Shown piece after piece: positions 581-53,562 of a stretch of DNA of 64,000 bases. The position numbers and the translations under genes are program-made. The DNA is from Marasmius tenuissimus (Eukaryota; Basidiomycota; Agaricomycetes; Agaricales; Marasmiaceae). The number at the start of each line of letters is the position of its first letter. Within the stretch, counting starts at the first letter, position 1. The notes below the pieces were generated by a model, which saw only the letters and a list, made by a program, of their open reading frames with translations, did no database searches and was not told the DNA's origin. Location: NCBI GenBank assembly GCA_029532415.1, contig JAQOTA010000054.1:744001-808000 (forward strand). The letters are read 5' to 3'.

Positions 581-2908
581 TCATCCGTCCACATCCATGT
601 CCACCTCTGACGACGGAGAATCATGATGGTCTCCCGTGTTCCCAATGTTAGAGTCTACATCCATCAAGTCGTCCATAAGAACATCTGGTAGATCCCAGAT
701 GAAGAAGCCACGTCAGTACTCTCGCTACAAGTGAGCGGCAAGGAAGATGCTATACCTTCGGAATGAGCCCTGATCAGATCCTCAAAGCGGAGTTCATCTT
801 CGGGGATCGCTTCGACAATCGAAAAACCCAACGACTCTGCATAATCTGCTGTGGAGTAATCGAACCCTTTGGCTTTCTGCCATTGTTCCATGAAATTGTA
901 CGCGTCGGCCTCCCAATAGACATAGTCCAAGCAAGCTTCGCTGGTATAGGAAGGCAGTCCGAGTGCGATACACTCTTGTTCGGTGATGGCCGACCCTCCT
1001 TCAGGATCACGGGAATAGTAGTAGAGGTTTTCTCCGTGAAGCCAAGTCTCGATGTCGGGAGTACCATTGGGGAGTTCAGGGACTGGTGGGATGAATAGAT
1101 AGCACGGCAAGCCCATTGGGTCCACAGTCCAGTCATTCTGTTCTGTTTCAAATGATCTTATGGTGTCGGAAGAGAGTTGTAACGTAAACCCATTGACAAT
1201 AGCTGTTTGGTAGGTCAAAATTCAATCCCCACACAATAAGGTAAAAGGGAGAGATATGTACCGGAAGATGACCATTTCTCTCGAGGAACTCCCAAACGGC
1301 CGAAGATCCATCCGGCTTGCGCTAGCCATTCTTCTTGGCAAATATGATATTGACTCTCGTGGATGAAGAACGGTGTGAAATCAATTGGATGTGTGATCAA
1401 GAGGCTAGGTTGGAAACCGTCAGTATCGCAGAAAGGGAATACATTTGGGTTCCAAAGCAACACACCGCAGCCCTGCTCCCTCCATGAATATTTCAATGTA
1501 CAAGTCCCGTACGCCCGAATAAGGGGGGTACACGTATTCGCCTGGGTTCCACTGACAGGACGATGGCGATTTCAAAACAAGTCGTGTAAAGTCCTTTGAG
1601 TCCCAAGTTCTGGTCCATGATCTGTTGGCCATGAAGTGTTGTTCCCAGTCGCATACTCCACGATGGTCTGGCCCACTTGTGTCATTTGCAGCGGCGGAAG
1701 ACATGGCTCGTACTGCCAACCGTTCCGGGACATTGTGCATTACATGGTCAAGGAAGGTGGTATCAGTGCATATGTTGAGCGGTACAGGAGGAAGCTCAAA
1801 CGGATCATATCTGCACCATGGATCTTCCATGTCCTGCCATATCCAGGTGAGTAAGCTCCTGTTGAATTCATACTCGAAGTAAGGTCCAGGCGGCCCGAAA
1901 CAGAGGACTCCTGTTTGTGGACGAAACCACAAGAGTCCGAGATTCAGGTTAACTGAGATATCATGGTCACCTGACGTTGAAAGTATCCAAGCGCGATGCT
2001 CATCAGTGGTGCCATGAAGAAGGGTGCCCTGAATATATACAAAGATTTCAATGCTACAGCCTACAGGTTTATCTTGTAGTGAGAGATGATAGATGAACGC
2101 ACCCAATTGGCTCGAAAGTAAAGGTAACATTGTGCGTGAAAAGAATAAAGGTTGTGCAATAGAAAGTGGCTGGCTGAAACGAGCTCTAAAGGGTATTGAG
2201 ATGTTGTCATCCACCCCATAATCTAAGATTGAGTGGCCCACCTTCATTAAATATGATCATGGGAATATCGGAATCGTTGAAAGCTCGGAACTGCGGTGTA
2301 GTACTAGTGCTAGTTCGGATTTCATGTTGAGCATCCCTGGCAGCTTTCAAGTGGATGTCCTACCGTTGTAGGGCAAAATGGATACAGTCCTTTTTGAAGA
2401 GCTAAAAGGGGAGTGTTCAAAACTCAGTCCCCTTTGTAACACATCTGAATGACCCAGTTTGAACGGACCTCCTTTGCATCCCGACCAGCGTATCTGATTG
2501 CCAGTAATGGAAGAGACTCTTTTCTCCCATCAACAATCGAGGCAATCTCGACTACCCGCTCTGCCTCAGGACTGTCTCCCTTCTCCAAATTTGCCAGCGA
2601 GAATCTTCTTCTTGAAGCCACTCTTGACTCGTGATAGAGGGTTTTGAGGAGCTTAATCTTTCCTAGAGAAATCCGTTCATACTATCCTCGCCACACATAA
2701 GTTATTGGCAAGTCAGATCCCCAGTGTACTAATTGCAACACACCTCCTGATACAGCATCTCCTTCCATTCTTCTCCTGGTTGATTTCGAACCAGGTTGTG
2801 TTCACTGGACTGCAAATGCAAGCAAGAGTTGTTGTTTTGATTACCCTGAACAATGTTGAAGTTTCCTCCCACGATTTTCGTGCGGCGCGCAGAGTGGAAC
2901 ATCGACAT
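581..2908 (-). CDS. PDIETWL family copy 1 (nine exons, intact)
   Basis: The start is the ATG at 2908-2906 (MSMFHSARRTKIVGG...), and the stop TGA is at 583-581. Nine exons can be traced with the donors and acceptors of copy 3: exon 1 ends MLYQE before GTGTGT, exon 2 begins YERISLGKIKLLKTL, and exon 6 carries LLWFRPQTGVLCFGPPGP. Exon 8 carries PDIETWLHGENLYYYS. An apparent stop after MFLWTT is not a mutation: it lies downstream of the last acceptor in the wrong frame, because intron 8 (71 nt, GTATAG...CTACCAG) is removed. The joined frame then ends VDMDVDG. Function is unknown; no enzyme motif was recognised. This is the inverted partner of copy 6. Exon edges other than the gene ends are by analogy. 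Confidence 0.8.
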
Positions 2909-3693
2909 GGCCGGTGCGTCAGGTTAAGAGATGGCGGTTTGGGTGAAAGTATTCGAGAATCAGATTGCTGTTCATCACTTGTGTTGGGCAGTGCGTCGGA
3001 CGGGGATCCCCGAGTTTGGTAGCCACGTAATCTCCATGTGAATTCGTCCCTCATACGCTGCTGTACATATAGATGGCAGGTTGTATTTATGTACAGCAAG
3101 CCCCTGAATCCTGCGGGATCCAAAGGGGATGTACTTCCAAATAAATAAACAAATATTGACTTTGAGGGAAAGCTGAAGTTTCAGCTTGAGCGGCACTTCT
3201 AACTTCCTCCGTCAAGTTGTACTCTGAAGGCAAGGCGACTAGAGATGTAAACTCTAGAGAGAAGAAACGTGCGTAAATACACTTACCAGTAACAGAAACC
3301 ACTCCTGCCAACAGTTTGATGCTTCACAATTGTAACTTGATGCGTATGAGATGGAAATATAGTTGCAACCATAGTGGTTGGAAGTAAAAGGAATCGAATT
3401 GAGACCCATACACATCTTCGGTTGCACCCGGCCCGATGCAGCTATCCTTCGAACGTTCACGATTGAGACAATCAGCGCATAGTGATATGCAGTGATGCAA
3501 TCTGAGCTCTCTCAAGCTTGCGGTGCCGCGTTGGTTGCTACAAGTTTGCTCTTTTCTACCTCCGTGTATACAATTGATTATTCTCTACTGATGTAGGTCC
3601 AAGATTACATGTGCAAAACTCGAGAAAGACTTTCCGCATCGACCAACGTCCATGTCGAACGGCAAACGATCACAAAGTTCAAACCCTCCTGTA
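2909..3693. other. Intergenic DNA between copies 1 and 2
   Basis: No gene seen. In reverse complement, about 3010-3340 matches 35745-36073 upstream of copy 6, including a conserved CGGGGATCCCCG block near 3000 and a GTTTCTTCTC...CTAGAG block near 3250. This makes it the shared promoter region of copies 1 and 6. The left arm carries about 100 extra bases containing an inverted repeat, GCTGTACATA at 3060-3069 and TATGTACAGC at 3088-3097. The region 3330-3690 matches 27230-27644 downstream of copy 5. Confidence 0.55.
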
Positions 3694-6049
3694 TCAGTCT
3701 AAATCCATTCGGTCGTCCTCAACCGCCTCTGGTAGACCTGAAGATGAACTAATTTCCCTTATGTGGGCGACATCATCGGAGTCGACATCCATTGGGTCTG
3801 CCTCAAGTACGTCCGGCGAGTCTGTGAACAAATTTCAGAAGTACCCCGTGTTGGTGTTTTGGTTTTGAAGGAATGACTAGGAAAAACCTACCCGTCAAGT
3901 CCTCAAAAAATCTTTCCTCCTGAGGGTTTGCTGAGAGGTCCGGGATACCCAAGGACTTTGCATAATCCGCGGTGGTATAATCAAACCCCTTGGCTTTCTG
4001 CCACTTTTCCATGAACTCATATACGTTGTCATCCCATTGAAGATAGTCTACCCATATGTCACTGGTCAAGAAAGGCAGTCCAAGCGAGATACACTCTTCT
4101 TCGGCGATTGTTGACCCTCCTTCGGGGTTATATGAATAGTAATAGAGGTTTTCTCCACGAAGCCAAGTCTCGATGTCGGGAGTGCTATCAGGACATTGAG
4201 GTAGCGGCAAGATGAATAGGTAGCACGGGGGTTCGAGCTCCTTAGGGTTGTTACTCCATTGTTGCCATGACTGGTATGACTGTTCGCTCCATAAAGGATC
4301 AAGAATAAATCTGATTTCTGTAATAAATCCTGTCGAGTGAAGATCAATATTCCGCTGTAGGTGGCACAACCTTCCATCAAGGAAAGGCACGGACTGCAAG
4401 ATTCCCATTCTCTTCTAGGTATTCCAAAATGAGTGAAAATCCGCCCGGCTTGTGCTAACCAATCCTCCCCCCGCTCACAATTAGTTGAACACTCCTCGTA
4501 CTGTTTGAAGGAAAACCATTCTGGGGTTTGATCAGCTGCTCTATCGATCGGAAAGCTAGACGAGAAACCATCAGTGACACAAGGAAGGATGGCAATTGAC
4601 GATTCGCTTCCCAGAAGAACGTACCGCATCTCTCTGTTCTCCATCGCTCTGTATATACCATGATATTCTCTGGCACTTAAGTTTTCCCACCGATGAAATG
4701 GAAGAGCCAAAATATGATCGGAGAATAATCCACCGTCGATGAGACTCATTGTGCGGGTCCGTGCATCCTCATCTTGGAGTCCAAAAGTGATGAACCAGCC
4801 GTCCCAACACACGGCACTTAGGACCATACGCTCTGGAAAGTTGTAAATGAGGTAGTCGAACAAAGCGCGACTGCCCGCATCTCGTGGTGAAGGAGGAAAT
4901 TGGAAGTGATTTCCGGGTAGATCATGATGGTCCAAACCTCCAGCATTGAGCATTGGATGCCAGTAATTAGCATGGAAAAAGTTCAGGGAACGGTGACCGT
5001 AAACCAATTTGTAGTCTTTGTGATACATGAGCCAGCCGGGCTCGGAGATGAGCTCAGGCTGGGGCGGCCCGAGACATAGTGCCCCTGTTTGTGGGCGGAA
5101 CCACATAAGTTGCACGAACTCCGGAAAGGGGTGCGAAGAAAACCAAGAATTGAGCAAGCCTTGACGAAGGTAATCCTAATTTACAATTGCTATCAACGCG
5201 GTGTAACAAGTAGTGAATGACATTGGACGCAGTGACGCACGTCAAATATATCGTGCCAAAGGCGAACGTAGCACAGGGCCTCCGCGGAAGACTTATTATA
5301 CTTGAGGAAGTGCTCGAGCGAGATCAGTTCTAGCGGGGGTTACAATCAATGTGACTGCAGTGGGTAAGTCTGAGGTTGAGTGGCCCACCTTTGTTGAATA
5401 TGATAATGGGAATATCAGAATCATTGTAAGCTCGGAGCTGCGCAAGATTGGTAGTTCTATCGCGAGTTTAATGAGGAGTATTTCTGGGGGCCTTCTGAGG
5501 TACGCGACATACCTCTGTCGAGAAAATAACATACAATCCCCAGCGAAAAGCTGTACGAGAGTCCTTAGCGATAACCGTTCCGACGTCCTAGCCTAATCGC
5601 ACCTTCTTTGCACCGCGCCCGGTATACTTGACAGCTAATAGTGGCTTGGACTCATTTCTCCCGTCACGATCCACAATCGAGGCAATCTCAACGACCCGGT
5701 TCGCCTCAGGGTAATCAACTTTATGAAAAGTCCCCATGTGCCATCGCCATGCCTGCAGTCCTGGCCTATACTCTGCACGATGGAGCGTTCTAAGGAGATT
5801 TATCCTCCAGATATGGATCCGTTCGTACTGCAGGTAAGAGTTATGAGATGGTTGGGGTCTGTACCGACACATCACTCAACGCACCTCCTGGTACAGCATC
5901 TCCTTCCATTCCTCTCCTGGTTGGATTCGGACCATCCTGCGTTCTGAACTGGACTGCGAGTCTGGATAATAGTGATTGTTGTTTTGAGTACCGTGAATGA
6001 TGTTGAAGCTTCCTCCTGTGATATTTATGTGGCTCGCAGAGTGGAACAT
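3694..6049 (-). CDS. PDIETWL family copy 2 (nine exons, intact)
   Basis: The usual first ATG is changed to ATT here, so the start is the next Met codon at 6049-6047 (MFHSASHINITGG...). The stop TGA is at 3696-3694. Exon 1 is 5885-6049. Later exons follow the family plan; intron 8 is GTAGGT...TTCACAG, after which the frame reads DSPDVLEADPMDVDS and ends DRMDLD. With copy 5 this copy forms a distinct subtype: it has IWRI in place of SLGKI, an extra exon-2 insertion, FPEFVQLMWFRPQTG, and CERGEDWLAQAGRIF. It is the inverted partner of copy 5. All joins examined keep the frame. Function unknown. Confidence 0.78.
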
Positions 6050-7389
6050 CAAAATGGCTACTGTGTCAGGTCAAAAGATGGTCGTGGTGGTTCGGGTTCA
6101 AGTCGTTGGAAATGCTGTTGGTGAGACGCCCAATCCGTGTATTTGATCATCCAAGTTCAGGACCCTATCGCGACCATCAGTGGCAGGTTCTCCCCCCAAA
6201 ACGAATGCTCAATTGCTTCTCCCGGCCCTCATGTGAATATTATATATAATTTTATCAGCTTAGGGGACATTTGATTGATGGGGTCTCGGCGAGCATTCGT
6301 AACACTGGCAACAGGGCGGGATCTCGTTTAAGTGAAACGAGTAAGGGCACGAATATACAGCAGTCGGCATACGTGGGCTATCCGTCTGGCTGGTCGAATT
6401 TGGGGAGAGTATCGGCGATATGTGCCTCAGTTCAAACGGGCTTTGGTGATAATAGGAAGAACCGTAGAGACAGAAATATTACATTACCTTCTCATTTGAG
6501 ACACTCTTTACCAGAACCTTAGTCCTATCCTTTTGTTTATTTTTCCTTGCTTGGGTTCTCTATTGTCTTTCTTATTCAACATCGAGACGAGCTGGCGAGG
6601 TAGTTTACTTTGATTGCATGAATCGAGTGGTGCTCGTGAGTGCACAAATTGTGCTGAATGAATATTGGGTGTCGAAACTTTGAGGTCTTTTTCGCCAGTA
6701 CCGGACGAAACGAGGATATAGAGGATAACGTCGTAGGGGGTTTTTCAGATAGTGCTATGCTGCGTAAACCCCGCTTGTTGATGTTCTCGAAGTGCGGTTG
6801 ACAGTCAAGCTGAAAAAGAAGCGAGGCTGGTCCTCCTTTAGTAACCCACCGTAAAAACAAGCACGGCTACGCCCGCCGTGTACAGGTGTTCCGGTATCCT
6901 GGCAGCGTTTTGACTGAGATACCAGTACAAGTCACGATCGAAACCTGAACGAAGGTACTTGTTGAACATTTGGATATTGGAGACGACACGGACTGCCTCC
7001 GAGAAGCTTGGGGGGGCCGAATGGGGCTGATCAGCGAACGCTAGATAAATCTCACTTGCGGCTCAATCTAGGTGGTCGGTAGTATAAGCGGAAACATGAT
7101 AGTCGAGGTCGTTCTTGTGTTGTGGTTTTCGCAGACACGGAAAGTTGGGAGCGGGAAAGTAACAATCGAGTCTAGTAGCTCATACTTTGGGATAAGCTCG
7201 AGAGCTGCCAGATGAATTATAATGCTGTCTCTAGCCCCAGTTACAGGAGCTGTAGAGACGATCAGAAGTCTGTCGATTGGAGCTTCGAGAGAGTATAAAG
7301 TCCAAAAAACCTGCTAGATATGACTTCCAGGAGTTACGAATTGGTGAGTAGCCTGTGGAATCGGAAAAGGTTCAGACGCGCGCCTGTCG
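6050..7389. repeat. Intergenic repeats shared with 23030-24850
   Basis: No gene recognised. In reverse complement, blocks here match the right arm: 6150-6260 with about 24600-24720, 6570-6960 with 23990-24400, 7020-7110 with about 23560-23640, and 7170-7320 with 23100-23500. Several blocks also recur inside the left arm: AGTAGCTCATACTTTGG near 7177 and again near 8783, and GAGAGAGTATAAAGTCC near 7285 with a close match near 9137. This is old repeated DNA. Short open frames here show no similarity to anything I know. Confidence 0.5.
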
Positions 7390-8080
7390 CGAATTCAAGT
7401 CAACAACTCGACAATCTTTCTGTCCTTGTACACCGATACTGCCAGATGGGGTTCCGTGCTTTGCTTGGCCAAGATCAACTCTGGAGAGGTAAAAGCAATG
7501 CGTGATCGCCAGACAATCATTGGGATGTTGGAGTCATTGAAGTAACGCATCTGACCAAATAGTGGGTTGCCGCGCCGCTCTGTGGTGAGAGGTGCAAAAG
7601 AAAAAAAGGAAATGGTTGAAGTGCACCGGATTCTCACAAAGACGTCGAGGGAGCTCCAAGCGATACAAACCGTGACAAGCAACTGAGAACCACCTTCTCT
7701 GCGTTCCGTCCGGTGTACTTGATTGATAGAGAGGGCCAAGGGTCTCAAGTTCCACTGAGGATGTATACCCGCTTTGCCCCCAACGGTACTGTCATTCTCG
7801 CACTGCGGGGGACTTCAGTCCTGGGAGAAAAAAATTGTTCTCATGAGCTTGGGATTCTTCTTGCCAAATGCTCATGGGACATCAGAGTCTTCCGCATCTC
7901 GCGATCGATACCTTCCTTTCAGAACGAAGAACGGTCTCGAGATGTGTATGCATGTGGTTGTTGGTGGTCTGATTACCCGGTAAAATGACGTTGGAGGTAA
8001 CGGTGAAGGACCGATGGTGGTGGTTACGAGTAGAATGCTGTGCGGCCGTACCGATTGCTCCCATCCTGGTTGTGTTCAAT
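7390..8080 (-). pseudogene. PDIETWL family relic A
   Basis: A decayed 5' half of the family is recognisable on the minus strand. Near 8060-7930 a frame reads HSTRNHHHRSFTVTSNVI then LPGNQTTNNH and SERKVSIAR, matching exon 1. Near 7870 FGKKNPKLMRTI matches the LGKIKLLKTL of exon 2. Near 7735-7690 SIKYTGRNAEK matches the end of exon 2. Near 7560 MRYFNDSNIPMIVW matches FRAFNDSDIPMIIFNE of exon 4, followed by an ELI... start of exon 5. There are stops and indels and no C-terminal domain. A matching relic is in the right arm at 22800-23030. Confidence 0.55.
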
Positions 8081-9690
8081 GTAGTTAAGGGATTACCGGT
8101 TCCTTTGCTTATTCGGCATTTTCTGACGCTCTTGTGAACCGAATCTTTTTGATACGGCGCTTCAACCGGGAATTTTGAGGCGTGGTTGCACCCACCTCTT
8201 GGCTCTCGCCTCGATTTTTATTCGAGTAGATGAGAGTAAAACATACTTTAGTCTTCGAAGCCTTAGACGAGCCACCAAAAAAACTTTCCACAATATTATG
8301 GGCCGTTCCGTGTACACCGTATGGTCGTGAATTTTCTGGTCACGTTGAGTCGGCTGGACATATCTAGGTCAAAAGAGTCAAAGAAACTAGCAGACTTGCA
8401 GTTGACGGTGAGAAAGGAAGTGTCTTGTGAGTAGCAAGCCCCCCCCCCCCCTTTTTTTTTGGTGTTGATTCAAGCGACTCGGTAGGGATTGCCTGGCGGA
8501 GAGATGTATTCATAGTGCCAAGGTTGGGCGTGTCGAATGTATCTCTTGATGTCACTGGTATGAGCTTTGAGGGGTTTTGTGAGTAAACGAGTAGGGAATA
8601 TTAGACCGCCACGACTCGAGCATTTTTTGAGATCTTTCTAGCTCTGATTGCAAGCTCGAAAGATCCACCGGGATTTGGAGAGTAACGCCAGAGAGGTCCA
8701 AGCTCTAGTTTTACGTGTGTAAACACAGCAGTTGACGCAACGAGCTATGGTTGACGGTCAGACTGGGAAAGAAGCGAGCTCAGTAGCTCATACTTTGGCA
8801 TAGGCCCGGTGCTTGAAGACGATGAATAGATGGACCACCGAGCTTGAGTCGTCAGATCGTTTCAACTTTAGTCTTCAGCCAAGTCAAAAGTCGTGTGTTC
8901 GATCTAACGAAAGGTCTTGAAGTGGCAGCGGGAGACAGCGTGCTGACCACTTTGATCTCGCAGGGGAAACAAAACCTGATTGTTGGCGCGGTAAGAAAGT
9001 GTGATCTGCGTCGCAAGTAGTAGTAGTAGTCCAGTAAAAGAGCCGTGAAATCTTTCAATCGACTTTATGATGTTTTTTTTTTCGTGTACTGTCTCTAGCG
9101 CTGTAGAGGATCAAAAATGCTGTTATGATTCAAACCTTGAGAGAGTACAAAGTCCAGAGAAACTACTGCCTTTGGTTCCACGAGTTGTGAATTGCAATGG
9201 GTAACAAAATTCGTTTTGAGGTTGACTTGAACGAGGTAGAAGTTGTCTGGCGGAGAGGTATAATTTACGGTAGGATGTCGAGGTCCAAACTTATTGGGCT
9301 TGTCGAATGCATCTCTTGATGTGACCGGTATGAGCTTTGAGGTACTTTTGAGTGAACGAGTAGTGAATATTGGATCGTGAGAAGTTGAACAACTTTGAGG
9401 TCCGATTTCTGGCTCTGATTGCAAACACAAACGATAACCGGGATTTGCAGAGTAACGTGTGAGGGGCCCAAACTCCAAAAGTTGACGTTCTTGAGGAGTA
9501 ACGAGCTGTAGCTGACGGTCAGACTGGAAGACAAGCACACCTTCCCGCCGTGACAACCGTGAGAACAAAGGCTGACTACGCGCGGATGACGAGGACTCCT
9601 CCCCCCCAAAAACACGCGGTACCGGTAACCCTTTAATCAATTCCATCATCGTTTCCCTTCCTCCCTCCATCGACCTTCCAACGACGAGCG
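8081..9690. repeat. Upstream region of BBC1 with internal direct repeat
   Basis: About 8600-8800 and 9345-9530 are diverged direct repeats (shared order GAGTGAACGAGTAGTGAAT, GCTCTGATTGCAA, CCGGGATTTG, AACGAGCT, GACGGTCAGACTGG). The last 350 bases before the BBC1 start match the flank of the BBC1 fragment at 22419-22760 in reverse complement, so this is the duplicated promoter/5' leader. A C/T-rich stretch (CATCGTTTCCCTTCCTCCC) immediately precedes the start codon, as is common in fungal promoters. No other gene seen. Confidence 0.5.
8439..8460 (+). repeat. Mononucleotide junction C13-T9
   Basis: Thirteen C are followed directly by nine T. It is not seen in the right arm and is a likely site of length variation or assembly error. 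Confidence 0.9.
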
Positions 9691-12600
9691 ATGTCAGATC
9701 CCCCACCCAAACCGAAACCAGGATCTCTTCGTGATCGTATCGCCGCATTCGAAAAGGCACCAAGCTCAGGCTCGTCCACATCGGGAGGAGGACCACCACC
9801 ACCGAGACCGAAACCGGGAGGGTTAACATGGAAACCCAAGCCAAAGGAGGTTACGCCGCCTTCGTCGCCTGGGAAGGATGCAGAGAAAGATAAGGAGAAA
9901 GCTGGTGGAGGGATGTCAGCTTCGGATGCACGACAGACGATTGGGATTGGTGGAGGGAGTTTGAAGGAGAGGATGGCTGCGTTGCAGGGGAGGGGTGGGT
10001 TTGGCGGTGCTGGTGGTGGTGGTGGTGCAGGTGTGGGTGCTACGCCTTCTTCGCCACCGCCTAGGCCGTCGTCGCCAAAGCCTGATAGGCCAAAGTGGAA
10101 GCCGCCTGTTCAGCCAGCGCCAGTTGCTGCTGAAGTTGAAGCTGAAGGCGATGAGAAGGACGAGAAAGAGGAAGACAAGGCTGAGAAGGAGAAGGACGAT
10201 GGCGATGAGAAAGAGGAAGCTCCAGCCGACGCCCCAACAGCGACGACGACGGAAGACACACCTGTAGAAGACGCACCTAGCGATGCTCCAGCCGATCCTG
10301 AGGACGAAGAACGACAACGGCGAGCAGCAATCGCAGCGCGCATGGCCCGATTGGGCGGTGCACGCGTTGGAATGGGCCCACCTGTCTTTGGTAGACCCAC
10401 AATCAAGAAGAGAGACTCGACGCCAACACCAAGGGAGGAGAAACCCAAACCTGAAGAGACACCAATCTCGCCCAATCCTGCTGGCGCCGAGGAAGACATC
10501 GGCGAAAGTAAGTCGTTCATTTTGGCTTGTATGATACGAACAACAACGTTGATTTGACTTGCGTAGGCAAAGATGTGTTATTCAAGGACGAAACGGCTAC
10601 GACAGAAGATAAAGAGAAAGACAAAGACAAAGATGAAGCAGACACTACGAGTACGACCAAATCACCCACACCCTCAGCCAAATCACCTTCGTTGCTCTCT
10701 CCCGACTCGCAGCCTCGCTCAACTTCCACCTCACCACGTGTCCCGAACGCGATGCCCATGTCGTCCATCCCGAGGAGAGCTGCTCCACCAAGGAAGAGGG
10801 GCAAGTCGCCCGTACCTCCTCCTCCTGAACCTGAGGAGAAGAAAGAGGAGACCACCGTACCCGAACCCGAACAGGAGAAGATTCTCGAGGAAGCTACCCA
10901 GGTCGTCGAACAATCGAAAGACGAAGCGGAGGAAAAGGTTCAACAAATCGAGCAAGCGCTTTCGGACGATCCGCAACCCCAGTTGACCTCTGAACCCGAA
11001 CCCGAGGAAGAAGAAGACGACGCTGAAGCTAGGAAACGTAGGATTGCGGAGAGGTTGGCAAAGGCTGGTGGTGTTAATCCTTTTGCTCCGCCTCCACCGA
11101 AAAGGCAAGATTCTGCTTCTTCTGGTGTTGGGAAGAGGGCTTCGGTGGACGGTGAGTTGGTTTCTACGCATCGCGGTGTATGCACCCGCTGACGATCTTT
11201 TGTGTGCAGTCCCTGAGAGGAAGGAGAGCGTTGGGTCTGCGTCTGCGTCAGTCGCATCGAGGAAGAGCTCGGTCGCTGTTGAAGGTGCCGGTGAAGGCGA
11301 GACTGCACAAGGTGAGTTTTTTACTTTGCCTCCGACTCTTTCGTTCTTCTCGATAATCAACGGGGACTGACCTTTTCTATGCATCTAGTGTCCGAGAGAA
11401 AGCAGAGCGTTGGATCTGTTTCCATCCCATCGAGGAAAAGCTCTGAAGGTGAGCTTTACAAGCTTCGAGAGTTACCTCCCTTCGTTCGGGTTTCGCCTTG
11501 TGTTTTTCTTCCTCCTTCCTTCCTCCCTGTTTTCCTCGTTCTCGTTCTCGAGACTAACGTTACATCGTTGTCTTCCTCAGTGCCAGAGAGGAAAGGAAGC
11601 ATCGGATCGGTCATCGCAGGGAAGGGTTCTGAAGAGGGTACGGAGGATTTATCGTCCTTCCTTCTTTTTTCTTTTCTCTCTCTCGAACAGGGGAAAAACT
11701 GACTACCTTTCGATTTGATTTGATAGGACCGGAGAGGAAAGGAAGTGTTGGGTCTATCGATGCGGGGTCGACGAGGAAGGGTTCTGTTGATGTTGAGGAT
11801 GAAGGTACGTTTGTAGTTCTGTTCTTTCTTCATTCGGGGGCTGACTGTGTTGATGGTTCTTAGTGCCGGAGAGGAAGACGTCTTTGTTGAGTAGTAGCGG
11901 TGGTGGGGGTGGTGGTGATGAGGAGGAGGAGAGGGATATAGGTGTCGTTGACGATGGTAAATCTCATTCTTGATCTTAGCTCCTACCCTTTTTCTTCTTT
12001 CTTCATATATCGACGGAAAACGAACGTGTTGTACTTATCCTCGTCTTGGTTGTTGTAGAAGATCAAGAACCTGCGAAACACGAACGAGAACGATCAGGTG
12101 TGGGAAAAGACTCGGAGGAACAATCAGGTGCGTTCTTCATTTCTATTCTATTTCGCACTCTCCATGGGGATTGCTGATGATGATGGGTTTTGATTACCTG
12201 GTTCTTTCCGATATGAATAGCTTTGACCGAGGATACGCCACCGCCGAAGGTTGATACTGCGAGTCGACCTCTACCTGCGAGTGTACCGCTTCCGATGTCT
12301 CCTCCTCCTCCACCTCCACCTGCTGCTGCACGACCTCCACCTCCTCCATCACTTGCGGCTTCGAGACCTCCACCCCCACCTCAACTCGCGAGTGCTCTTT
12401 CTGAGCAATCTGAACCGGAGGAATGGGCTGATGCTGAGGAGAACGATCAAGTGGAGGAAGAGGAGGAGGAAGAGGAAGAGTTACCTCCTCCACCCCCACC
12501 ACCGCCTCCGAAGAGGGTATCGGTGCCTCCACCTCCTGCACCACCTCCCGCTTCGTCTCGACCTGTACCTGTACCCGATGAAGAAGACGACGAGGGGGAG

Positions 12601-15232: not shown

Positions 15233-16035
15233 AACGTCGATCTGAATTTGTTTCTCCCTCGTCGTTGAATGAACCTGAAGGAGACGAACTTAGTTTTTAT
15301 ATTTGGGATGGATTTGTACCCTTTTGACGATTGGATTTAGGACCGAGTCTGAGTACTACGATTGTTTCTTCCCTTTTTTGTCGTTTCATTTTTCTCGGTC
15401 TTGGTTTTTGAGCTCAATACATGTGACAACACCTACACCTACACTCTATATTCTGATACTACTGCATACTGCGAATTGTACCTACATAGATCCAGAAAGT
15501 CAGCCAGTTCTAAGCGACTGCATGATGTCGATGAGGTACCGTTGTAATCTGAATTCCTTCGTGAGCCTACATTCGGATATTCAACGCAGGCGGGTATAAC
15601 ACCGGAAATTAACTTCACCGGAACTTGCCGTGGGCCGCGATGGTGAAGGCCCCTTGGTTACCATTGCTCATCCTGCTCCCACTCACCATCATGGTCCCAA
15701 CTCTGTTCGTATCTGATGCTCAAAGCTAATACTCTATACAACTCTGGACTTCTTGCGAAAAATGACTGCTCGGTCACTGGTAAGTTTATTTTCACATGTT
15801 TTCCCTCTCCACTTCTCCAGAGACTTTTCTCGCCGGCAAAAGACTCGGAAGGCAGAACTACCGCTCGAGCTAGAGCTAACTAGCCTGCCCCCAGAATGGA
15901 AATATGGAGATCACGCGACCGTTGGACTCGGAGATCCCCAGCTCGACGCACTGCCCTACACGACGAGTGATGAACAGCATTTTGATTCTCGTAGACTTTC
16001 ACCCAAACCATCATCTCGGATCTGAAGCACCAGTC
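15233..16035. other. Intergenic region between BBC1 and copy 3
   Basis: The first 250 bases are the BBC1 3' UTR/terminator area; part of it (GGACCGAGTCTGAGTACTAC near 15340) recurs downstream of the truncated BBC1 copy near 43210. The last 100 bases before 16036 (GATGAACAGCATTTTGATTC near 15970, ACTTTCACCCAAACCA near 15995) are shared with the upstream regions of copies 1 and 6 and form the family promoter-proximal block. No gene seen. Confidence 0.5.
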
Positions 16036-34600: not shown

Positions 34601-34957
34601 GGCAACGTCGCTCGACATCACGGAGGGGGACGATGTTGCATCGACTCGGATAGGACCATGTGAGATAGCAATGTCATTTATAGTATCATTCATTTGTATA
34701 TCATATGTAGTCTGCTCGTGCTGCATATGCTGCGTACGGGGTACCTCCAGAGAGGCTACTACGCCGACGCCACCCCGAGACGTTGACGAGGAGGAAGATA
34801 CTACGTTAGGCCCACCCCGGGGCACAAACGAGGAGGAAGGTACATCGTAGGTGCCACCCCGGAACACCAACGAGGAATAGAAGGAAGACTGTGTGTCTAG
34901 ATACGGGTAACCAGTGTGAGTTACTGAACGAGTAAGAAGGGTCCGCGGAAAAGACAC
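28619..34957 (-). pseudogene. Helitron RepHel protein with one in-frame TGA
   Basis: The reading frame from 34957 runs 1741 codons to a TGA at 29734-29732, then continues in the same frame for about 370 codons to 28619. Rep part: HUH-type LHLHVLIWIDG near residue 858 and tyrosine motif MVHYMCNYVAK near 1034. Helicase part (Pif1-like, SF1B): Walker A GPGGTGKS near 1570, LTAPTGVVASDIGGCTIHSE, DEAYFLAAKD near 1650, GDPCQLPPPRG near 1687; after the stop, TSHNAQGRSLDV and AYVMLSRVRSLKG. The stop falls between helicase motifs III and IV, so the protein as read would lack helicase function. It acts, when intact, as the rolling-circle transposase. The N-terminal part contains (S/F)RGG repeats. The stop could equally be a sequencing error. 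Confidence 0.9.
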
Positions 34958-35502: not shown

Positions 35503-35593
35503 TGAATCCGAAAGAAAAGGGAGGAAGAAAAGGGGCCAACGAGCACAGCTTCTCGGATCTCAGAGTCACAACGCACGGAAGCGGGCCGCGTTG

Positions 35594-35715: not shown

Positions 35716-35744
35716 TAGGTTAGCCAAACCTAAAGGTTCAGCAA

Positions 35745-39798: not shown

Positions 39799-40340
39799 AT
39801 GTTTAACTCTGAGAATTTCACCAGAGTAACAGGGGACTTCAGTGTCATTCACGGTAATCAGAGCATCTGCGATTCTATATCAGGAGCTGCGTTTAATGAT
39901 AAGGGGCCGCGAATTCTGATCGAGTCGTAGTAAGAGCGGATAGGTTGAGTTTCCAGCCGTCGTGAAGCAGTAATAGGCCGAGTAGCGCGTAAATCATAGC
40001 GATTTCAAGGAAAGGTGATTGTCCTAAAGCCAACCGTCACTCTATCGAAATTGCTTCGATTATTGATGAGCGACAAGCCTCCTCCACACGGCGGGATTTT
40101 CAATGTCAACTCGCGCTTTGTAATGTGATGTCAACATGGTTGTCAACTCATTCTCCACTCGGAAATTGAATGGGACCAGGGTAAACCTCACCAAAAAACA
40201 AGTGGAGAACGAGTTGACAACCATGTTGACATCACACTACAAAGCACGAGTTGACATCGAAAATCCCGCCGTGCCATTGTTGAGTCGGCTCGCCTGGGTC
40301 AAGAGTTCAAATGGGCAGCTCTCCTCCTCAAGAAGAGCCT
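39799..40340 (+). pseudogene. PDIETWL family relic C, interrupted by a foldback element
   Basis: It begins at ATG 39799 (MFNSENFTRVTGDFSVIHGNQ in short: the family exon 1 motif). Near 39880 CTATATCAGGAGCTGCG matches the end of exon 1 (CTGTATCAGGAGGTGCG). Near 40040 SIEIASIIDER matches RVVEIASIVDGRE of exon 2. At 40087, exactly within the codons for the following SLPLL, the 187-bp element is inserted; similarity resumes after 40273 (PLLSRLAW). Stops and frameshifts are present and no later exons are recognisable. Confidence 0.6.
40087..40273. mobile_element. 187-bp foldback element with 74-bp terminal inverted repeats
   Basis: The ends are CACGGCGGGATTTTC... at 40087-40160 and its complement at 40200-40273. 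They differ at about five positions, all transitions. Only about 39 bases separate the arms. The flanking CCA (40084-40086 and 40274-40276) is a 3-bp target duplication, confirmed by the family sequence at that point (CTT CCA TTA CTG). Ends beginning CAC with a 3-bp duplication are compatible with the CACTA/EnSpm group; no coding capacity. Confidence 0.85.
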
Positions 40341-41084: not shown

Positions 41085-43340
41085 GCGGTATTGGTAGCCC
41101 CTACTCGATTCGTTGTTCTACCCCATCAATGTTGTATCGACATCCGGAGCTCAGTCTCATCTACGAGCCTCCGTGATCTTATTCAAGCCGTCAAAAGCCT
41201 CTGTTGGGAACATCGGGCTCGGGCTCGTCGATACTAGGACCAATACCATGATCAGAACTGGGAGGCCAACATGGAAACCAAGCCACGGAAGGATGCCGCG
41301 GAAGAGAAATATGAAGAGACAGCTGGGGGAGGATTGTCAACCTTGGATGTACGACAGGTGGCTAGAATTGGGGGAGAGCTCAAAGGAGAAGATGGCTGCG
41401 CTGCAAGGGAGGGGTGGGCTTGGTAGCTCTGGAGATGTGGGTGCTATGCACCTGGGCCGTTATCACCAGAGCTCATGATAGGCCAAAGTGGAGGCCGCTC
41501 GCTCAGATAGCCCTGCAATTATCGAAGCCGAAGGCCAATTGAAGGGGGAGAAGAAGGAAGAGCAGTCTCACCCTAGCTCGCTGGTGGTGAGGAAGGAATT
41601 GGTGAAAGTAAGTCTTACGGTTTGCATGATTGAATGACGATGTTCACCAGATTCTGGGCAAAGATATACTATTTGAAGATAAAAACGATCCTGACAAGAC
41701 TACGACTAAAGCACCCCCAGGCCTCAGCCAAATCACCCTCGTTACTCTCTGGCCCCGACTCTCATCTTCTACCTCACCGGGCATTCCGTTTACTATGTGG
41801 CGAGCTGCTCCGTTCAACCCTGAGAAGGTAGAAGAGGCTGTCACATTCGCCACCGAAAACGCTGAACCCGATCAGAAAAAATACTTCCAGAAGACGCTAC
41901 CCGGTCGCAAGACGAAGCAGAGGGAAAGGCACAGGAGCAACCGCTTTCGGAGGAACCCAAACACGAACCAAAGCCAACCTCTGAGCCCGAGCCTATACCT
42001 GCGGATGAAGACGAAGCTGAAGCAACCATAAACGTTGGATTGCATAGAGGTTGGCAAAGGTTGGAGGTGTCAATCCTTTCGCTCCGCCTCCACCGTGGAG
42101 GTGGGATTGGGAAGAGGTGAGTTCAAATGTGACGCGTCGAGTGTACATACTGACTAACTATCTTTCGTCACAGTACCCGAGAGGAAGGAGAGCATTGGGT
42201 CGGTGTCTATCGTATCGAGGACAAGTTCTGTTGCCATTAACCTTCGACACTGTCGTTCATTTGTATCTTACTGTACTCATTGTGCACATACACACTCATT
42301 CGTACATATGTATACCACACGCATTCATCGTACAGGCGATGGTGATAGAAACTCTATGTATTGTATTATCATTATTACCTCTTGTACACTATACGTACGG
42401 TGCGCAACGTGTATGTATTCATTGTAAGCAGATGATAATGGATAACGATCGTGGGCTGTGGGGTATCAAAAAGGTCCATCCTTGTCCTCATGTTTCTGGC
42501 GGCTCTTCTCGAGATCATCTGGATTGGGCACATCGTCATCGTCTTTCTCTAATTCTTTCTCCTTTTTCCTCCGATGATTCGAGAGCCTCCAAGGTACGTT
42601 TTCGCATTCTCCCATCTCTCCCACTATTGTGTCTCGTCCTCGCGACGACGACTCTCGTGCCCTAATTGCTAACTGTTATCTCTTTCTGTAGCGCCGGAGA
42701 AAAACCAAGCGGCGGATTCGTTTCCGTTCCGTCAAGGAGGAGATCCGAAGGTGCGCCCTACTTTTCGCTTTTCCCCTTCATTCTCCTTGGTCTAACCAAT
42801 GTCTTTCGTTCTTTGTTCAATAGTAATGGGAATTGGACCACTCGAAAGAAAAAAGGATTGTTGGACGTGTTATTGCGGGATCGGCACTGGCTTTGAGGAA
42901 GGTTTCTGTTGACGTTGAACGCGAAACAGAAGTCGAGGGTGCATACTATAAGGCAAGTTGGCGATTTTTCGTTCTCGTTGGGAGAATGCTGACTCCCGAC
43001 TCGGTCTTCAATAGGGCCGGAGAGAAAATGTTCTTGTTGATGTTGTGTGGTCCTGGCGGGGGGCGGCAAACACGAGAAGGTCGTCGCTTCATGCTCGAAG
43101 GTGTTTCCGGGTGTTGGGCTTGATTGATTTCCCCTCCCTCATTCAATGTTGGTGATCTAGGTTCTCGTAATCGGAATCAATTCGCACCCTTTTGATACTC
43201 GAATTTAGGAACGGGTCTGAGTACTACAACTATCTTTTTGACTTCCGCCTCCCTCTTTTTTTCTTACCGCTATTTCATTTCTTAATTTTGGTCTCGAGTC
43301 CACTATATGCGGCCAAACCTACATTTACTACTGGTACACT
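41085..43340 (+). pseudogene. Truncated BBC1 copy lacking the large exon
   Basis: Recognisable in order: exon 1 remnants near 41165-41420 (CGTGATCTTATTC, GGCCAACATGGAAACCAAGC, GATGGCTGCGCTGCAAGGGAGGGG split over two words); the exon 1/2 junction (GTAAGT...GGCAAAGATATACTATTTGA) near 41610-41670; the end of exon 2 near 42050 (GGTGTCAATCCTTTCGCTCC); a PERKESIGSVSI mini-exon near 42180; a second mini-exon near 42690; and the extreme 3' end plus UTR near 43105-43330. The 2.9-kb proline-rich exon and the conserved C-terminal domain are deleted. There are several frameshifts and no usable start codon. Compare the intact gene at 9691-15232. Confidence 0.8.
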
Positions 43341-43865: not shown

Positions 43866-46142
43866 ATGTCAATGTTCCACTCTGCACGCCGCACGAAGAT
43901 CATAGGAGGAAACTTTAGCATTGTTCAGGGTAACCAAACCAACAACTCTTATTCACATTTGCGGTCCAGTGAACGCAGCCTGGCTCGAATCCAACCAGGA
44001 GAAGAATGGAAGGAAATGCTGTATGAGGAGGTGTGTTGGGCAATTGCACTGGGAATCTAACTTGCTAATGACTGATTATGGCGAGAGCAGTACGAACGGA
44101 TCTCTTTAGGGAAGATCAAGATCCTTGAAACCCTCTGTCACCAACCAGTAGTAGCTCCAAGGAAAAGGCACATAGGGGCGAATTTGTGGAATGAGGACAA
44201 TCTTGAGGCAGAGCGGGTAGTTGAGATCGCGTCGATTGTTGATGGGAAAGAGGAGTCTCTTCCATTACTGGCGGTCAGATACGCCGGTCGGGATGCGAAG
44301 AAAGTACGTTCAAACTGGCTTGATCAAATGAGTTCTGGTGGCCGAGTTTTTCAACACTCTTTTAGCTTTTCAAAAAGGATTGTATGAATTTTGCTCTACA
44401 ACGGTAGGACATCCACTTGGAAGTTGTCAGAGGCACTCATCATGAAATTCGAAACAGCTCTAGCACTATGCCGCAGTTCCGGGCTTTCAACGATTCTAAT
44501 ATTTCCATGATCGTATTCAATGAAGGTGGGTCACTTAAAATTGTATTGATGACGCGGATAACAACGTTCAAATACCTTCCAGAGCTCGTTTCGGCTAGTC
44601 ACTTTTTATCGCACAACCTCTATTCCTTTCACGCGCAATGTTACCTGCACTTACAAGCCCGTTCGGTGCGTCCGTCTATTGTTAGTCATCACAACATCGA
44701 CCTATAGCATTATAACCTCCGTACATTTAGGGTGCCCTTCTTCGTGGCTCCACTGATCTACATCGAGCTTGGGTATCTTCGATGTCCAGTCCCTTGGGCT
44801 TGAACTACATCCTGTGGTTTCGCCCGCAGACAGGAGTCCTCTGTTTCGGACCGCCTGGACCCCACCGCAGGTATGAGCACAACAGGAGCTTCTTTATGTT
44901 GCTGGATCGGCGGAGCATGGAAGGTCCAACGGACGGATACAGTCGGTTCGAACTTCCCCCTTTGCCACTCAACATATGCACCGATACCACCTTCCTCAAC
45001 CACCTAATGTGCAATGTCCCCGAACGGTTCACAGTGCAAACCATGTCTTCCGCCACTGTAAAGCACACAAGGGGGCCGCTTCATGGTGGTATACGTGACT
45101 AGAAAGAGCGCCTCATGGCTGAAGAATCATGGACTGATGATTGGGAGAACTTTTCAAGACTGGTTTTAAAATCGCATGAGTGGAGCTCACACGGCTTCCA
45201 GTGGCCATGTGGACCGGATGTACAGGATTGGCCCATAAAGACCGAGCAAGGAGAGGTGCGGTGTGTAACTCCAAAACACAAATGCATTTCTCCTTGCAGT
45301 ATTGACATTCTCTAATCTAGCTTCCTGGTTACAGAAACGCCCAATTCACCAGGATTCCCCTTCCAACAGAGTCAATGTCGCACGCACGAGGAAGAATGGC
45401 TGGCGCAGGCCGGATCGATCTTCGGCCGTTTCAGGATTCCTCGAGACAAGTGGTCATCTTCCGGTCCGTATCTCTCCCCTTTACTCTATTGCACAGAGAT
45501 TAAATTTTGACCTATGCGACAGTTATGATTCAAGCGTTTGTTTTACAACTCTCTTCCGACGCCAAAAAATCGCTTGAAACGGAGAATGATGACTGGAATG
45601 AGGACCTCGGCTCCCCGTGCTATCTATTCCTCCCACCACCCCCTCAACTACCCAATGGCGCCCCCGATATCGAGACCTGGCTTCGCGGAGAGTGTCTCTA
45701 CTACTATTCTTATGATCCTGAAGGAGGGTCAGCCATCACTGAGCAGGACCGTATCACACTCGGACTGCCTTCCTATACAAGTGAAATTTACGTGGAATAT
45801 GTCTATTGGAAGGCTGACGCGTATGACTTCATGGAACAGTGGCAGAAAGCCAAAGGGTTTGATTACTCTACGGCAGATTATGCAGAGTCGCTGGGTTTTA
45901 CGATCCTCGAAGGGATCCCCAAAGATGAACTCCGCTTTGAGGACCTGGTTCCAGGGGCTCATTCTGAAGGTATGGCATCTCCCTCACCACTCGCTCGTAG
46001 CCAAAGCACTGATATGGGCTTTTTCATCTGATATTCACCAGGGGTGCTTGCGGACGACCTGATGGATGTAGACTCTGATATTGGAAACACGAGCAACCAT
46101 TATGATTCTTCGTCAGAGGTGGACATGGATGTCGATGGATGA
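43866..46142 (+). pseudogene. PDIETWL family copy 7 with a nonsense codon in exon 6
   Basis: The start is 43866 (MSMFHSARRTKIIGG...) and the stop ends at 46142 (VDMDVDG). All nine exons and splice sites follow copy 3. In exon 6 the codon that is TGG (Trp, in RDWKERLM) in the relatives is TAG at 45100-45102. Downstream coding is otherwise preserved, including RTHEEEWLAQAGSIFGRF and PDIETWLRGECLYYYSYD. The TGA after MGFFI near 46030 is not a second lesion, because it lies in intron 8 (GTATGG...TTCACCAG). The product as read would stop after the WFRPQTG block, losing the C-terminal domain. A single G-to-A change explains it, so it may be a recent loss, a polymorphism or a read error. Confidence 0.8.
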
Positions 46143-48434: not shown

Positions 48435-50763
48435 ATGTCCATGTTCAGCTCTGCAAGCCGCACGCACATCACAGGAGGGAGTTTCAATATCATTTATGGC
48501 ACTCAAAACAACAATTATCCGGACTCACAGTCCGGTGGACGCAGCCTGGTTCGAATACAGCCAGGAGAAGAGTGGAAAGAAATGCTGTATCAGGAGGTGC
48601 GTTGGAGGACACGGTAATGCAAAATGCGGCTAAGACATGTTTTGCAGTACGAACGCATCTCCCTTGGGAGGATCAAGCTCCTGAGAACGGTTCACCATGA
48701 AAAGGATGGACCACCGGTGGGCGCAAAGAGCTCGAGAAGATACATAAGGGTGGCTTCCCGAGGAGACGGTCGCCCTGAGGCAGAGCGGGTTGTTGAGATT
48801 GCCTCAATTTCGGATCCAGACGGGAGAGACGAGTCTCGTCCGTTATTAACTGTCAAATACACCGGGCGGGACGCAAAGAAGGTACGCTTGGGCCAGCCTA
48901 TTGGAGCTTTGGGATGCATTCGGTCGTCACTAACAACTCCCCTACAGCTTTTCAACAAGGATTGTATCCTATTTTGCCGACATCGGTTCGTTTGGTACCT
49001 TGAAAGCCCAGAGGTACAACTCATACTTAGCTCGATTTGAACTCGCAGGACCACTATAATGGCTCAGCTTCGAGCTTTTAACGATTCCCGACATATTCCT
49101 GTTATTATATTCAATGAAGGTGGGCCGTTTCACGACCACAGAATATTCGAGGCAACTAATACCGATTCCAACTTCTTCTAGAGCTCATTTCGGTTCAGCA
49201 TTTCCTAGAATACAACCGGTATTCCGTCCAGGCGCGATGTTACCTTCAATTACACGCTCGATGGCAGGTGCGCTGGTTCTTTATTACTACTCACCATAAC
49301 ACCGACATATGGTGTTGATATTATCGGAAACTCAGGGCCCCCTTCTTGGCGATTCCTCTGAAGAGCTTCGAGCTTGGGTACTTTCGGCGTCCAAGGAGGA
49401 CGACCTACTTCACTTCCTATGGTTCCGCCCGCAAACCGGAGCCCTCTGTTTTGGGCCACCCGGGCCGCCCCTCGACCTCAATTACTATAGGTACCTCTGC
49501 CGACCGATACTAGAAAATCCGCTGCCTCGATCTTATTACCTCGAACTCCCCCCGTCACCACTCATTGTGTGCAATGACACTGCCTTCCTCGACTACATTG
49601 CGCACAATGTCCCGGATTGGTTGCTTGTTCAAGTGGTGGCTACTTTGTGTGAAAGTCGCGTTGTTGCACCGCCCCATTCTGGAACACAATCTTGGAAAAA
49701 GTATGTTATGACCAACATATGGAAGTCCTGTACCTGTGGGGGACATCGCCTCGAGACAAGGCGGATTCTGAAAATCCCGTTTGGTTGTTGGACTCACACT
49801 CCGATAACTGGGTATTCATGTGGATTTGTACCGCCGATAGAGCATGAGCCGTACAAAGAAGCAGAGAATGGCGGGATACGGTGCGTTGCTTCGGGATGCA
49901 AACAGGTGTCTTCATTCTAACGTCGACGGTATTCTGGTCTAGCCTCCTATTTACGCGATCGCTCCGTGCCGTAGGATTCAACTTTACCTCTCGTTCGACT
50001 CGCGAGGAGTACTGGCTAACACAAGCCGGGCGAGTTTTCAGTTGTTTAGGAATTCCCCGAACAGAATGGGCATCTTGCAGTTCGTGTCTTTGTCTTTCGT
50101 TTTCGCGCTGAATGAGTATTGATTTATCCGACAGGTATCATCACAGGTTTTACGTTGCAGCTCACTATCGACGACGAGGAGTCCAACGCACCGGAAGACT
50201 TAGCGGGCGAAGAATTTAATTCGCCGTGCTATCTGTTCGTCTCGCGACCTCCTAAATCACCTGGTTGTGTCCCGGACATCGAGACCTGGCTTCGCGATGA
50301 GGACCTCTACTATTACTCTTACGACCCTGAAGGAGGGTCAGCCATCACCAAAGAGGAGCGATTATCACTTGGACTGCCCCGCTTTACCAGCGAGGTTTGT
50401 GCGAGGTATGCTTGTTGGGGCACTGAAGTATATGACTTCATGGCACGGTGGCAGAGAGCCAAAGGGTTCGATTATACCACCACCGACTACGCAGAGATGT
50501 TCGACTTGCCAATCCTCAGAGTGATCCCCCAGGACATAATCAGCTTCGAAGATCTGATGTGGGGTGGTTATGAAGATGCAGGTACGGCTGCTTCAGTTCT
50601 GTTCTTCGTAGCTCAAGCGTTGACATAAGATAAAGCTGTATCTTCGGGCTCGTTGCAGGAATATTCAGAGGACAACATGATGGAAGTAGACTCCGAGTTC
50701 GCGGATATGAGTGACGATCGTAGTTTTTCGTCCCCTGATGTCGATATGGATGCAGAAAATTAG
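48435..50763 (+). CDS. PDIETWL family copy 8 (nine exons, intact, 615 aa)
   Basis: Exons: 48435-48596, 48648-48881, 48948-48985, 49049-49119, 49183-49268, 49336-49880, 49943-50079, 50135-50581, 50636-50763; all frames join, giving 615 residues. Key strings: GGSFNIIYGTQNNN, ERISLGRIKLLRT, VKYTGRDAKK, FNDSRHIPVIIFNE (one residue longer than the relatives), LWFRPQTGALCFGPPGPP, YWLTQAGRVFSCL, PDIETWLRDEDLYYYSYD, and an acidic end VDMDAEN. The last acceptor must be GATAAAG at 50635; the nearer TTGCAG would shift frame. It groups with copy 9 and shares the NDTxFLDY and exon 7/8 wording. It lies outside the palindrome. Function unknown. Confidence 0.83.
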
Positions 50764-51291: not shown

Positions 51292-53562
51292 ATGTTCAAC
51301 TCGTCAAGTCACGCGAAGGTTACTGGAGGAAGCTTCAGCATCGTTCATGGCAATCAACATAACTATTATATGTATCCCGAGCAGTCTGTCGAACGCGGCA
51401 TTCAATTCCAACCCGGCGAAGAATGGAAAGAATTACTGTATCGAGAGGTGCGTTAGACGATACAATGTTACACAGTTTAATCTAACCGTGGTTGAAAGTA
51501 CGAGCGCATCCCTTTAGGAAGAATTAAGCTTCTCAGGACCCTTCGACACGAAACACCTGCCTTGAGCACAAGGGGAAGGTCCATCCAAGCAGCCACTTCT
51601 CGGAGAGAGGGTGACCCTGAAGCAGAGCGGGTGGTTGAAATTTCCTCAATCATCGATGGGAGAGACGAGTCCGTACCATTTCTGACTATCAGGTATACCG
51701 GACGGGGTGCTAAGAATGTGCGCTTGAACTGTCAATTTCATATGAGTCGGGCAGTTGTTGACGGTTCCCTTCCAGCTTTTCAAAAAGGACTGCATCCATT
51801 TCTCCCGACAACGGTAAGTTATGCACTTCAACAGCTGAAGAAGATGCCCCTCACAGTACTCGAAACAGAGCCACCACCGTGCCACAACTTCGAGCTTTTA
51901 ATGATTCTGATATTCCCATTATCATATTTCATGAAGGTGAGCTACGTTACTTCGGGATGTTCGACGCAAATGACGCTTTTTAGAGCTTGTTTCGGCTCAA
52001 CACTTCTTAAAACACAACCTATACTCCGTTCAGGCGCAGTGTTACCTTCACTTGCATGCTCGACAGGTCCGTCCATCCGTTGTTAGTCCATACAACCACC
52101 CGTGGGGCTGAGACTGTTGCATACTGAGGGCTCCCTTCTGAGAAACTCCTCTGAGGAGCTTCGAGCTTGGGTGCTTTCAGCTTCAGATCTCGACGATTTG
52201 AGCCACCTCTTGTGGATCCGCCCGCAAACTGGAGAGCTATGCTTCGGACCGCCTGGGCCGACCCTGAGCAATCTTAATCACAGACTGTTTCTGAGCCGAC
52301 CAGTAGTGGAACATCCGCTCCACCGATTCAATTGCCTCGAACTTCCTCCTTCGCCCCTCACCGTCTGCAACGACACCACCTTCCTCGACTACATGTTACA
52401 CAATGTCCCGGAGTGGTTAGTTGTACAAAATGTGGCTACTTTCGGTGAACGTTGCAGGATTGGACCGCCTCATCGTGGCACACGGCTCTGGAAGGAGCAC
52501 CTTATGACCAACGGATGGACGTCCTGGAGTTCAATGGGAGTATGCCTCCCAAAACGCGTTCTGAAAATTCCGTTTGGCTGTTGGGCTCACGCTCCGATAT
52601 TACGGTATTCATATGACTCGGAGATTTCATCGTCGACAAGTCATGAGTTGTACAGAGCGACGGGGAATGGAGGGATGCGGTGTGCTTCCTCTTCAAATAG
52701 GTTTTCTCACTGTGAAGTTTACTGTGTCTTGATCTAGCCTCGTATTCACACGGTCACTCCGTACTGCAGGATTCGACTTCAGCGAAGGGTCCTATTTGAG
52801 TCGTGAGGAGCAGTGGTTAACGCAGGCTGGACGGATTTTCAGCTGTTTCGGGATTCCTCAGAGTCAATGGACACTTTGTAGTCTGTGTAACCTGTCTTTG
52901 CATTCCGATTGAGCGGTAGCAGATTCTGATTTATCCGACAGATATCATCACAGGTTTCACATTGGAGCTTGTACGGTCCAACGACGACGAATCCTTCGAG
53001 CTAGATGGCTCGAACAAGGACCGTTGTTCACCATGCTATCTATTCATCTCGCCTCCCCCTCAACTTCCCGGTGGTGCCCCAGACATTGAAACTTGGCTAC
53101 GCAGAGAGAACCTCTACTACTATTCCTACGATTCTGAAGGAGGGTCGGCCATCACCGGAGAAGAACGCTTCTCGCTCAGATTGCCTTCCTTTACCAGTGA
53201 AGTGTGCGCAAACTATGCTCACTGGGACACAGAAATATATGACTTCATGGAGCAATGGCAGAAAGCCAAAGGGTTCAATTTCGTCACGACAGACTATGCA
53301 GAGTCTTTAGGCTTCCCAATCCTCAAGGTAATCCCTCAGGATAGAATTGGCTTCGAGGATCTGATCGGGGCTCGTGAAGGCGAAGGTATATGTCCTCCCT
53401 TACCGTTCCTTCATGGCCAAGACACTGACACGATACCCTTACTTTGAAGACTCGCCAGAAGTGCTTGAAGACGAGCCAATGGATGTTGACTCGAAGTTCG
53501 CAGATACGAGCGACGACCACGATTCTTCACCAGATGCGAACATGGATATGGAAGATTGTTAA
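51292..53562 (+). CDS. PDIETWL family copy 9 (nine exons, intact, 604 aa)
   Basis: Exons: 51292-51447, 51499-51717, 51776-51813, 51869-51936, 51984-52066, 52129-52679, 52738-52880, 52942-53385, 53450-53562; all joins keep frame, giving 604 residues. The start is the ATG at 51292 (MFNSSSHAKVTGGSF...), because relatives also begin at MF and the preceding in-frame codon is only GTG. Key strings: GGSFSIVHGNQHNYY, ERIPLGRIKLLRTL, FNDSDIPIIIFHE, LLWIRPQTGELCFGPPGP (Ile for Phe), EQWLTQAGRIFSCF, PDIETWLRRENLYYYSYD, and the C-terminus DANMDMEDC. It is the last family member in the window; beyond it the sequence becomes single-copy. Function unknown. Confidence 0.83.

Follow-up and report, generated by a model that had tools for sequence, protein, structure and literature searches.

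What are the genes that recur in nine copies within a 64,000-nucleotide stretch of the genome of the mushroom Marasmius tenuissimus, and what could their products do? The stretch (C28:744001-808000, hereafter the window) comes from an assembly of 71,056,785 bases in 70 contigs, and the original prediction, made from its letters, was of a probably undescribed family with nine copies and four relics. We give an even chance to the reading that these nine genes form a single array within a very large family of soluble, probably intracellular, non-catalytic adaptors that evolve by birth and death.

The nine-gene array and its family

Comparison of repeats and reading frames within the window, together with spliced alignment, confirmed that one gene is present in nine copies, two on the minus and seven on the plus strand. 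A chance repeat was rejected, the copies being alignable over long stretches with common introns. The largest subtype comprises copy 1 (581-2908, minus strand; nine exons, open), copy 3 (16036-18312, plus strand; nine exons, open; NCBI model PM082_016760, P0001), copy 4 (19163-21755, plus strand; an insert in exon 5; PM082_016761, P0004), copy 6 (36074-38694, plus strand; an insert around intron 7) and copy 7 (43866-46142, plus strand; one in-frame TGA in exon 6; PM082_016770, P0006). The second consists of copy 2 (3694-6049, minus strand; nine exons, open; PM082_016758, P0030) and copy 5 (24852-27229, plus strand; nine exons, open; PM082_016762, P0022), and the third of copy 8 (48435-50763, plus strand; nine exons, open; PM082_016772, P0016, the protein used for folding) and copy 9 (51292-53562, plus strand; nine exons, open; PM082_016773, P0013). 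Positions 581 and 53562 are the stop-codon ends of copies 1 and 9. These three predicted subtypes were borne out by protein identities of 64-72% within 1/3/4/6/7, 68% for 2/5 and 62% for 8/9, against 41-52% between subtypes.

Every intron of the spliced models is bounded by GT-AG. The predicted plan of nine exons with identical phases held for exon number in seven of the nine copies and for the phase series 0,0,2,1,0,2,1,1 in six (1, 3, 5, 7, 8 and 9), but inserts give copies 4 and 6 a tenth exon, with the common series plus one extra phase, and copy 2, whose first ATG is codon 3 of the aligned start, deviates at intron 5, the placement of which is uncertain. Copy 4 is open only with a 277-nt gap in exon 5 spliced out, and copy 6 only with a tenth exon of 9 nt at the intron-7 insert. 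As had been claimed, at least six copies are intact and the others broken: copies 1, 2, 3, 5, 8 and 9 are open, 4 and 6 carry inserts and 7 carries an in-frame stop. Apparent breaks near the acidic tail of copies 1, 2, 5, 7 (a second stop), 8 and 9 are due to the last intron, as the deposited models show. Matches to proteins placed the locus tags PM082_016758 to PM082_016773 inside the window, and NCBI models exist for seven of the nine copies. The model of copy 7 (P0006) omits the TGA-bearing part, and that of copy 2 (P0030) has, by eye, an apparently wrong 3' end. The last 37 residues of the deposited copy 4 protein (P0004) derive from a fragment at 22237-22347, so that its public 3' end also looks wrong. 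The strings described as distinctive were found exactly in four to eight copies (GGxFxIVxGNQ in five, WFRPQTGxLCFGPPGP in five, PDIETWL in eight and YYYSYDPEGGSAI in four), the remainder being only near variants. Scans for Rfam families and tRNAs gave no match.

The array is real, but a family of nine copies was an understatement. With the member P0010 as query, the genome yielded 101 exon matches, and more distant members gave 93, at least 150, at least 150 and at least 150; for the last three, 150 of 500-604 candidates were scored and all 150 matched, so that these counts are lower bounds. In the merged lists at least 276 places encode the C-terminal domain; 226 have another such place within 20 kb, and 231 are on contigs C12, C23, C7, C28, C10 and C39. 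The window contains nine of these places, and the part of C28 from 0.72 to 1.39 Mb contains 35. The merge took all places from two distant-member queries, the C-terminal ones from P0010 and the 93-match query, and 14 from the last query, most of whose matches were judged already present and not entered. Among 16 further stretches, we obtained nine-exon models for L037 (with a stop), L039, L043 and L045 (with a frame-shift mark); models were poor for L032-L035 and L042, and composite for L044 and L046.

The ratio of nonsynonymous to synonymous substitutions (dN/dS), a check proposed with the original prediction, was obtained by Nei-Gojobori counting with our own script. It was 0.23-0.44 across all 36 pairs of the nine copies (4, 6 and 7 included), the values being rough between subtypes and for 8/9, where dS exceeds 1. 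The family is under purifying selection, with no overall positive selection. Within the largest subtype, windows over the N-terminal part and the conserved C-terminal exon gave a dN/dS of 0.13-0.31 and 0.17-0.26, respectively, those over the middle 0.38-0.75 and the final window 0.56. In a tree of 35 proteins, copies 2, 4 and 8 were sister to proteins of another M. tenuissimus assembly (AAF712), and a clade of four proteins from Marasmius sp. AFHP31 had multiplied separately. Copies 1, 3, 5, 6, 7 and 9 had no sister among the five AAF712 proteins included, the comparison being limited to annotated proteins found by the searches. Nine of 38 proteins (P0029, P0030 and P0032-P0038) and the NCBI models of copies 3, 4, 5, 7, 8 and 9 were left out of the tree. 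The tandem expansion, the coexistence of open and broken copies and this turnover between lineages support the birth and death originally proposed.

A kinase-like domain in the predicted structure

The family is unnamed and probably undescribed, as had been suggested, with no credible Pfam or NCBIfam name and no related PDB sequence. Copies 3 and 4 had no Pfam match, 18 members of the alignment had only two weak ones (E 0.16 and 0.47, in one member each), and four members had only non-credible NCBIfam matches. All 38 database relatives were unnamed Marasmius proteins, in protein searches that needed shared 5-residue words and hardly reached other genera; similar unnamed proteins may occur in other Agaricales. 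We found no title or abstract opening describing the family in a literature search for which subscription papers and preprints were mostly out of reach.

At the level of sequence no domain can be recognised, in line with the earlier statement that the C-terminal two thirds show no named domain, but in the predicted structure residues about 46-290 form a kinase-like domain. The AlphaFold2 model of the copy 8 protein (P0016), made from an alignment without P0029 and P0037, had a predicted local distance difference test score (pLDDT) of 70.6. Its residues 46-290 matched protein kinases in all 50 matches listed by each program, and 38 of the 50 viral models among the matches listed were named protein kinases. 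The model has N-lobe strands with helix C, plus a C-lobe, similar to solved kinases. A family protein of about 600 residues is laid out as an N-terminal motif, this kinase-like domain without glycine loop, HRD, DFG or APE, a variable middle, a conserved C-terminal region and an acidic tail.

Among 24 chosen members, none had GxGxxG or a DFG-like string, one had an APE-like string, and HRD-like strings occurred in two, each time farther downstream than expected. As a control, nine kinases that kinase profiles or queries had picked out of this genome all had HRD-, DFG- and APE-like strings; GxGxxG was present in only one of these nine, and the absent glycine loop therefore weighs little. The position of the strand-3 lysine, assigned by eye from strand order, was K in 12, R in 10 and S in two of the 24, and the helix C aspartate was invariant. 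We rejected active kinases on the motif counts of these 24 members. The predicted fold, the missing catalytic motifs and the lack of a significant profile link led us to call the family members candidate pseudokinases, with residues about 46-290 in a predicted protein-kinase fold.

Several points weigh against reading the family as a very large one of pseudokinase adaptors. No kinase family, PF00069 and PF07714 included, came up when 2, 18 and 5 proteins were scanned against Pfam with E as high as 10, and the profile search of PDB sequences was likewise empty. The model was built on 36 sequences from one genus, with the kinase domain folded only within the whole protein; no Foldseek match fell below E 1e-3 and TM-scores were low, 0.14-0.19 relative to the query and 0.18-0.40 relative to the target. 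Alignment of profiles (hhalign) with three sets of own-genome kinases gave nothing significant (best E 0.63, 0.5 and 0.19), the set with E 0.63 being a poor test that contained the kinase-free frame L062 and the set with E 0.19 comprising eight own-genome kinases plus L060. On its own, the C-terminal region, taken from a copy 4 frame that retains intron 7, folded into a poor model with a pLDDT of 51. As for size, the 276 are places that are not all demonstrated as whole genes, and some pairs that score identically (e.g., C28:310358 and C55:434901) may be duplicated stretches of the assembly.

A rather unlikely alternative derives the family from the fungi-specific kinase lineage FslK, as a branch that has lost catalysis, owes its spread chiefly to duplication and has little individual function, its birth and death being driven by drift. 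The expansion of FslK in Agaricomycetes (PMC3937382), the kinases with HADLKGVN and DFG in the same region as the family (L075-L077, C28 at about 1.09-1.12 Mb) and the presence of broken copies and relics would all agree with this, but the dN/dS of 0.23-0.44 and the conserved N- and C-terminal blocks indicate selection on function, and the profile link to the kinases of the L075-L077 region was not significant (E 0.19). The two families are alike in expansion (in Agaricomycetes for FslK) and in a kinase fold, which for the Marasmius family is predicted; the structural matches listed here include many domains of the tyrosine-kinase type. FslK members, however, are described as mostly having complete catalytic domains, keeping all kinase subdomains and being found by kinase profiles (PMC3937382), whereas the Marasmius family lacks GxGxxG, HRD and DFG, is missed by Pfam and has no complete set of kinase subdomains, the catalytic motifs being absent from the 24 members. 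The FunK1 kinases are similarly an expanded fungal family (PMC6001611), but no scanned Marasmius member had a FunK1 or other kinase Pfam match. Compared with pseudokinases such as JAK2 JH2 (PMC4718504) and MLKL, the candidate pseudokinases of Marasmius show no detected sequence similarity, have other flanking regions and are far more numerous.

Relics and neighbouring sequence

Three of the four claimed relics were found, of which only one is strong (7234-7780, minus strand), with pieces of the kinase-like region (E 1e-6) followed by a weaker piece. The two others, at 22850-22921 (plus strand; E 0.031) and 39799-40082 (plus strand; the N-terminal motif at E 0.024 followed by part of exon 2 at E 0.34), are weak: with E 0.02-0.03 they score like a chance match inside a Helitron (E 0.033), and they rest on context, the former lying within the inverted duplicate of the 7.2-7.8 kb relic. 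The duplicated block extends over 3345-9948 (minus strand) and 22155-27640, in separate stretches 67-85% identical, and carries copies 2 and 5, the relic and a fragment from upstream of an AIM3/BBC1-like gene (12217-15327, plus strand). Pieces near 22155-22632 (minus strand) and 41905-42095 (plus strand) resemble frames just upstream of the latter gene (9.5-9.9 and 10.9-11.1 kb), and one such piece sits inside the inverted duplication.

Between copies 5 and 6 lies a Helitron-type element (28619-35026, minus strand) with Helitron_like_N, PIF1 helicase and DUF6570 domains in two adjoining frames. Pieces of an O-methyltransferase (56797-57815, plus strand) and of a purine-cytosine-type permease (61644-62075, plus strand) adjoin the array, and most of the 20 reading frames scanned in the gaps had no Pfam match. 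The AIM3/BBC1-like gene, the Helitron, the O-methyltransferase and the permease offer no hint of the function of the family.

Proposed adaptor role and N-terminal motif

We infer an adaptor or receptor-like intracellular role from the purifying selection, the conserved ends and variable middle, the predicted non-catalytic kinase fold, the lack of a visible secretion signal and the high copy number; self-association and any recognition or immune role can likewise only be inferred. For such adaptors, the N-terminal motif would gather copies or partners, the pseudokinase and C-terminal regions would hold a fixed partner, the fast-changing middle would set specificity, and the copies would multiply and die through tandem and inverted segmental duplication.

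The N-terminal motif, 15 residues long and a variant of GGxFxxVxGNQ, starts all nine copies. A blended 44-residue query recovered 124 motif places (E up to 10), and for 103 of these a C-terminal place lay no more than 4 kb away. Eight were opened and inspected by eye: L068, L071, L072 and L073 are distant family members, and L067, L069, L070 and L074 are gene starts with a family-like motif and no family sequence visible in 2.4 kb. The motif may be an exchangeable module.

Amyloid-like motifs at the N-termini of Agaricomycete NOD-like receptors (NLR05/08/22/44) consist, according to a 2022 survey, of three hydrophobic residues followed by a G[DN] pair (PMC9815663). Both features were present in 20 of 37 family motif variants, as judged by the printed description; the variants include seven chosen by eye and one, L067, from outside the family. 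The likeness to the NLR05/08/22/29/44 motifs of that survey (PMC9815663) extends to shortness and N-terminal position, but a matrix of the family motif matched none of 12 NLR starts of this genome at p < 0.05 (lowest 0.0585), these starts being picked by eye from 12 of 72 NACHT-domain matches, of which there is perhaps more than one per gene. Ten of these 12 NACHT protein starts (L047-L058) carry short N/Q-rich GRDQ motifs unlike that of the family. The likeness to the NLR motifs is a lead, not membership.

MLKL is a pseudokinase that acts in necroptosis signalling with RIPK. By analogy, the motif could be of an amyloid-type homotypic kind and the family the non-NLR side of an NLR-triggered signalosome, RIPK/MLKL-like as in necroptosis, which we consider unlikely. 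The agreement of 20 of 37 variants with the printed NLR05/08/22/44 description (PMC9815663), the 72 NACHT-domain matches and the four of eight opened motif places at which no family sequence was seen, so that the motif may be exchangeable, are in its favour; it is opposed by the failure of the matrix on all 12 NLR starts, by the different GRDQ motif on ten of them and by the N-terminal position of the family motif, whereas the survey seeks effector-side motifs at C-termini (PMC9815663). We are equally doubtful that the at least 276 loci are a repertoire of pseudokinase adaptors, each headed by a motif that associates with itself, as a mushroom counterpart of the RIPK/MLKL signalosome diversified like an immune or allorecognition repertoire.

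Secreted or host-targeted effectors, the former an option of the original prediction, are very improbable in spite of the birth-and-death clusters and of the place of M. tenuissimus among the causes of cacao thread blight (PMC8581569), and we rejected secretion on hydropathy, which showed no signal, hydrophobic N-terminal stretch or membrane stretch in any of the nine copies (over the first 60 residues the 15-residue mean peaked at 0.72, and the 19-residue mean nowhere exceeded 1.15; no dedicated predictor was run), the predicted kinase fold also standing against them.

If the members of this putative adaptor family are pseudokinases, a family of at least 276 places without a Pfam name in one mushroom genome gains a testable fold and layout for many nameless proteins. 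Of about 500 candidate effector proteins in the 2022 survey, no more than a few contained motif-like fragments (PMC9815663). If the N-terminal motif self-assembles, the family would open a way to the partners still missing from NLR-linked amyloid signalling in Basidiomycota.

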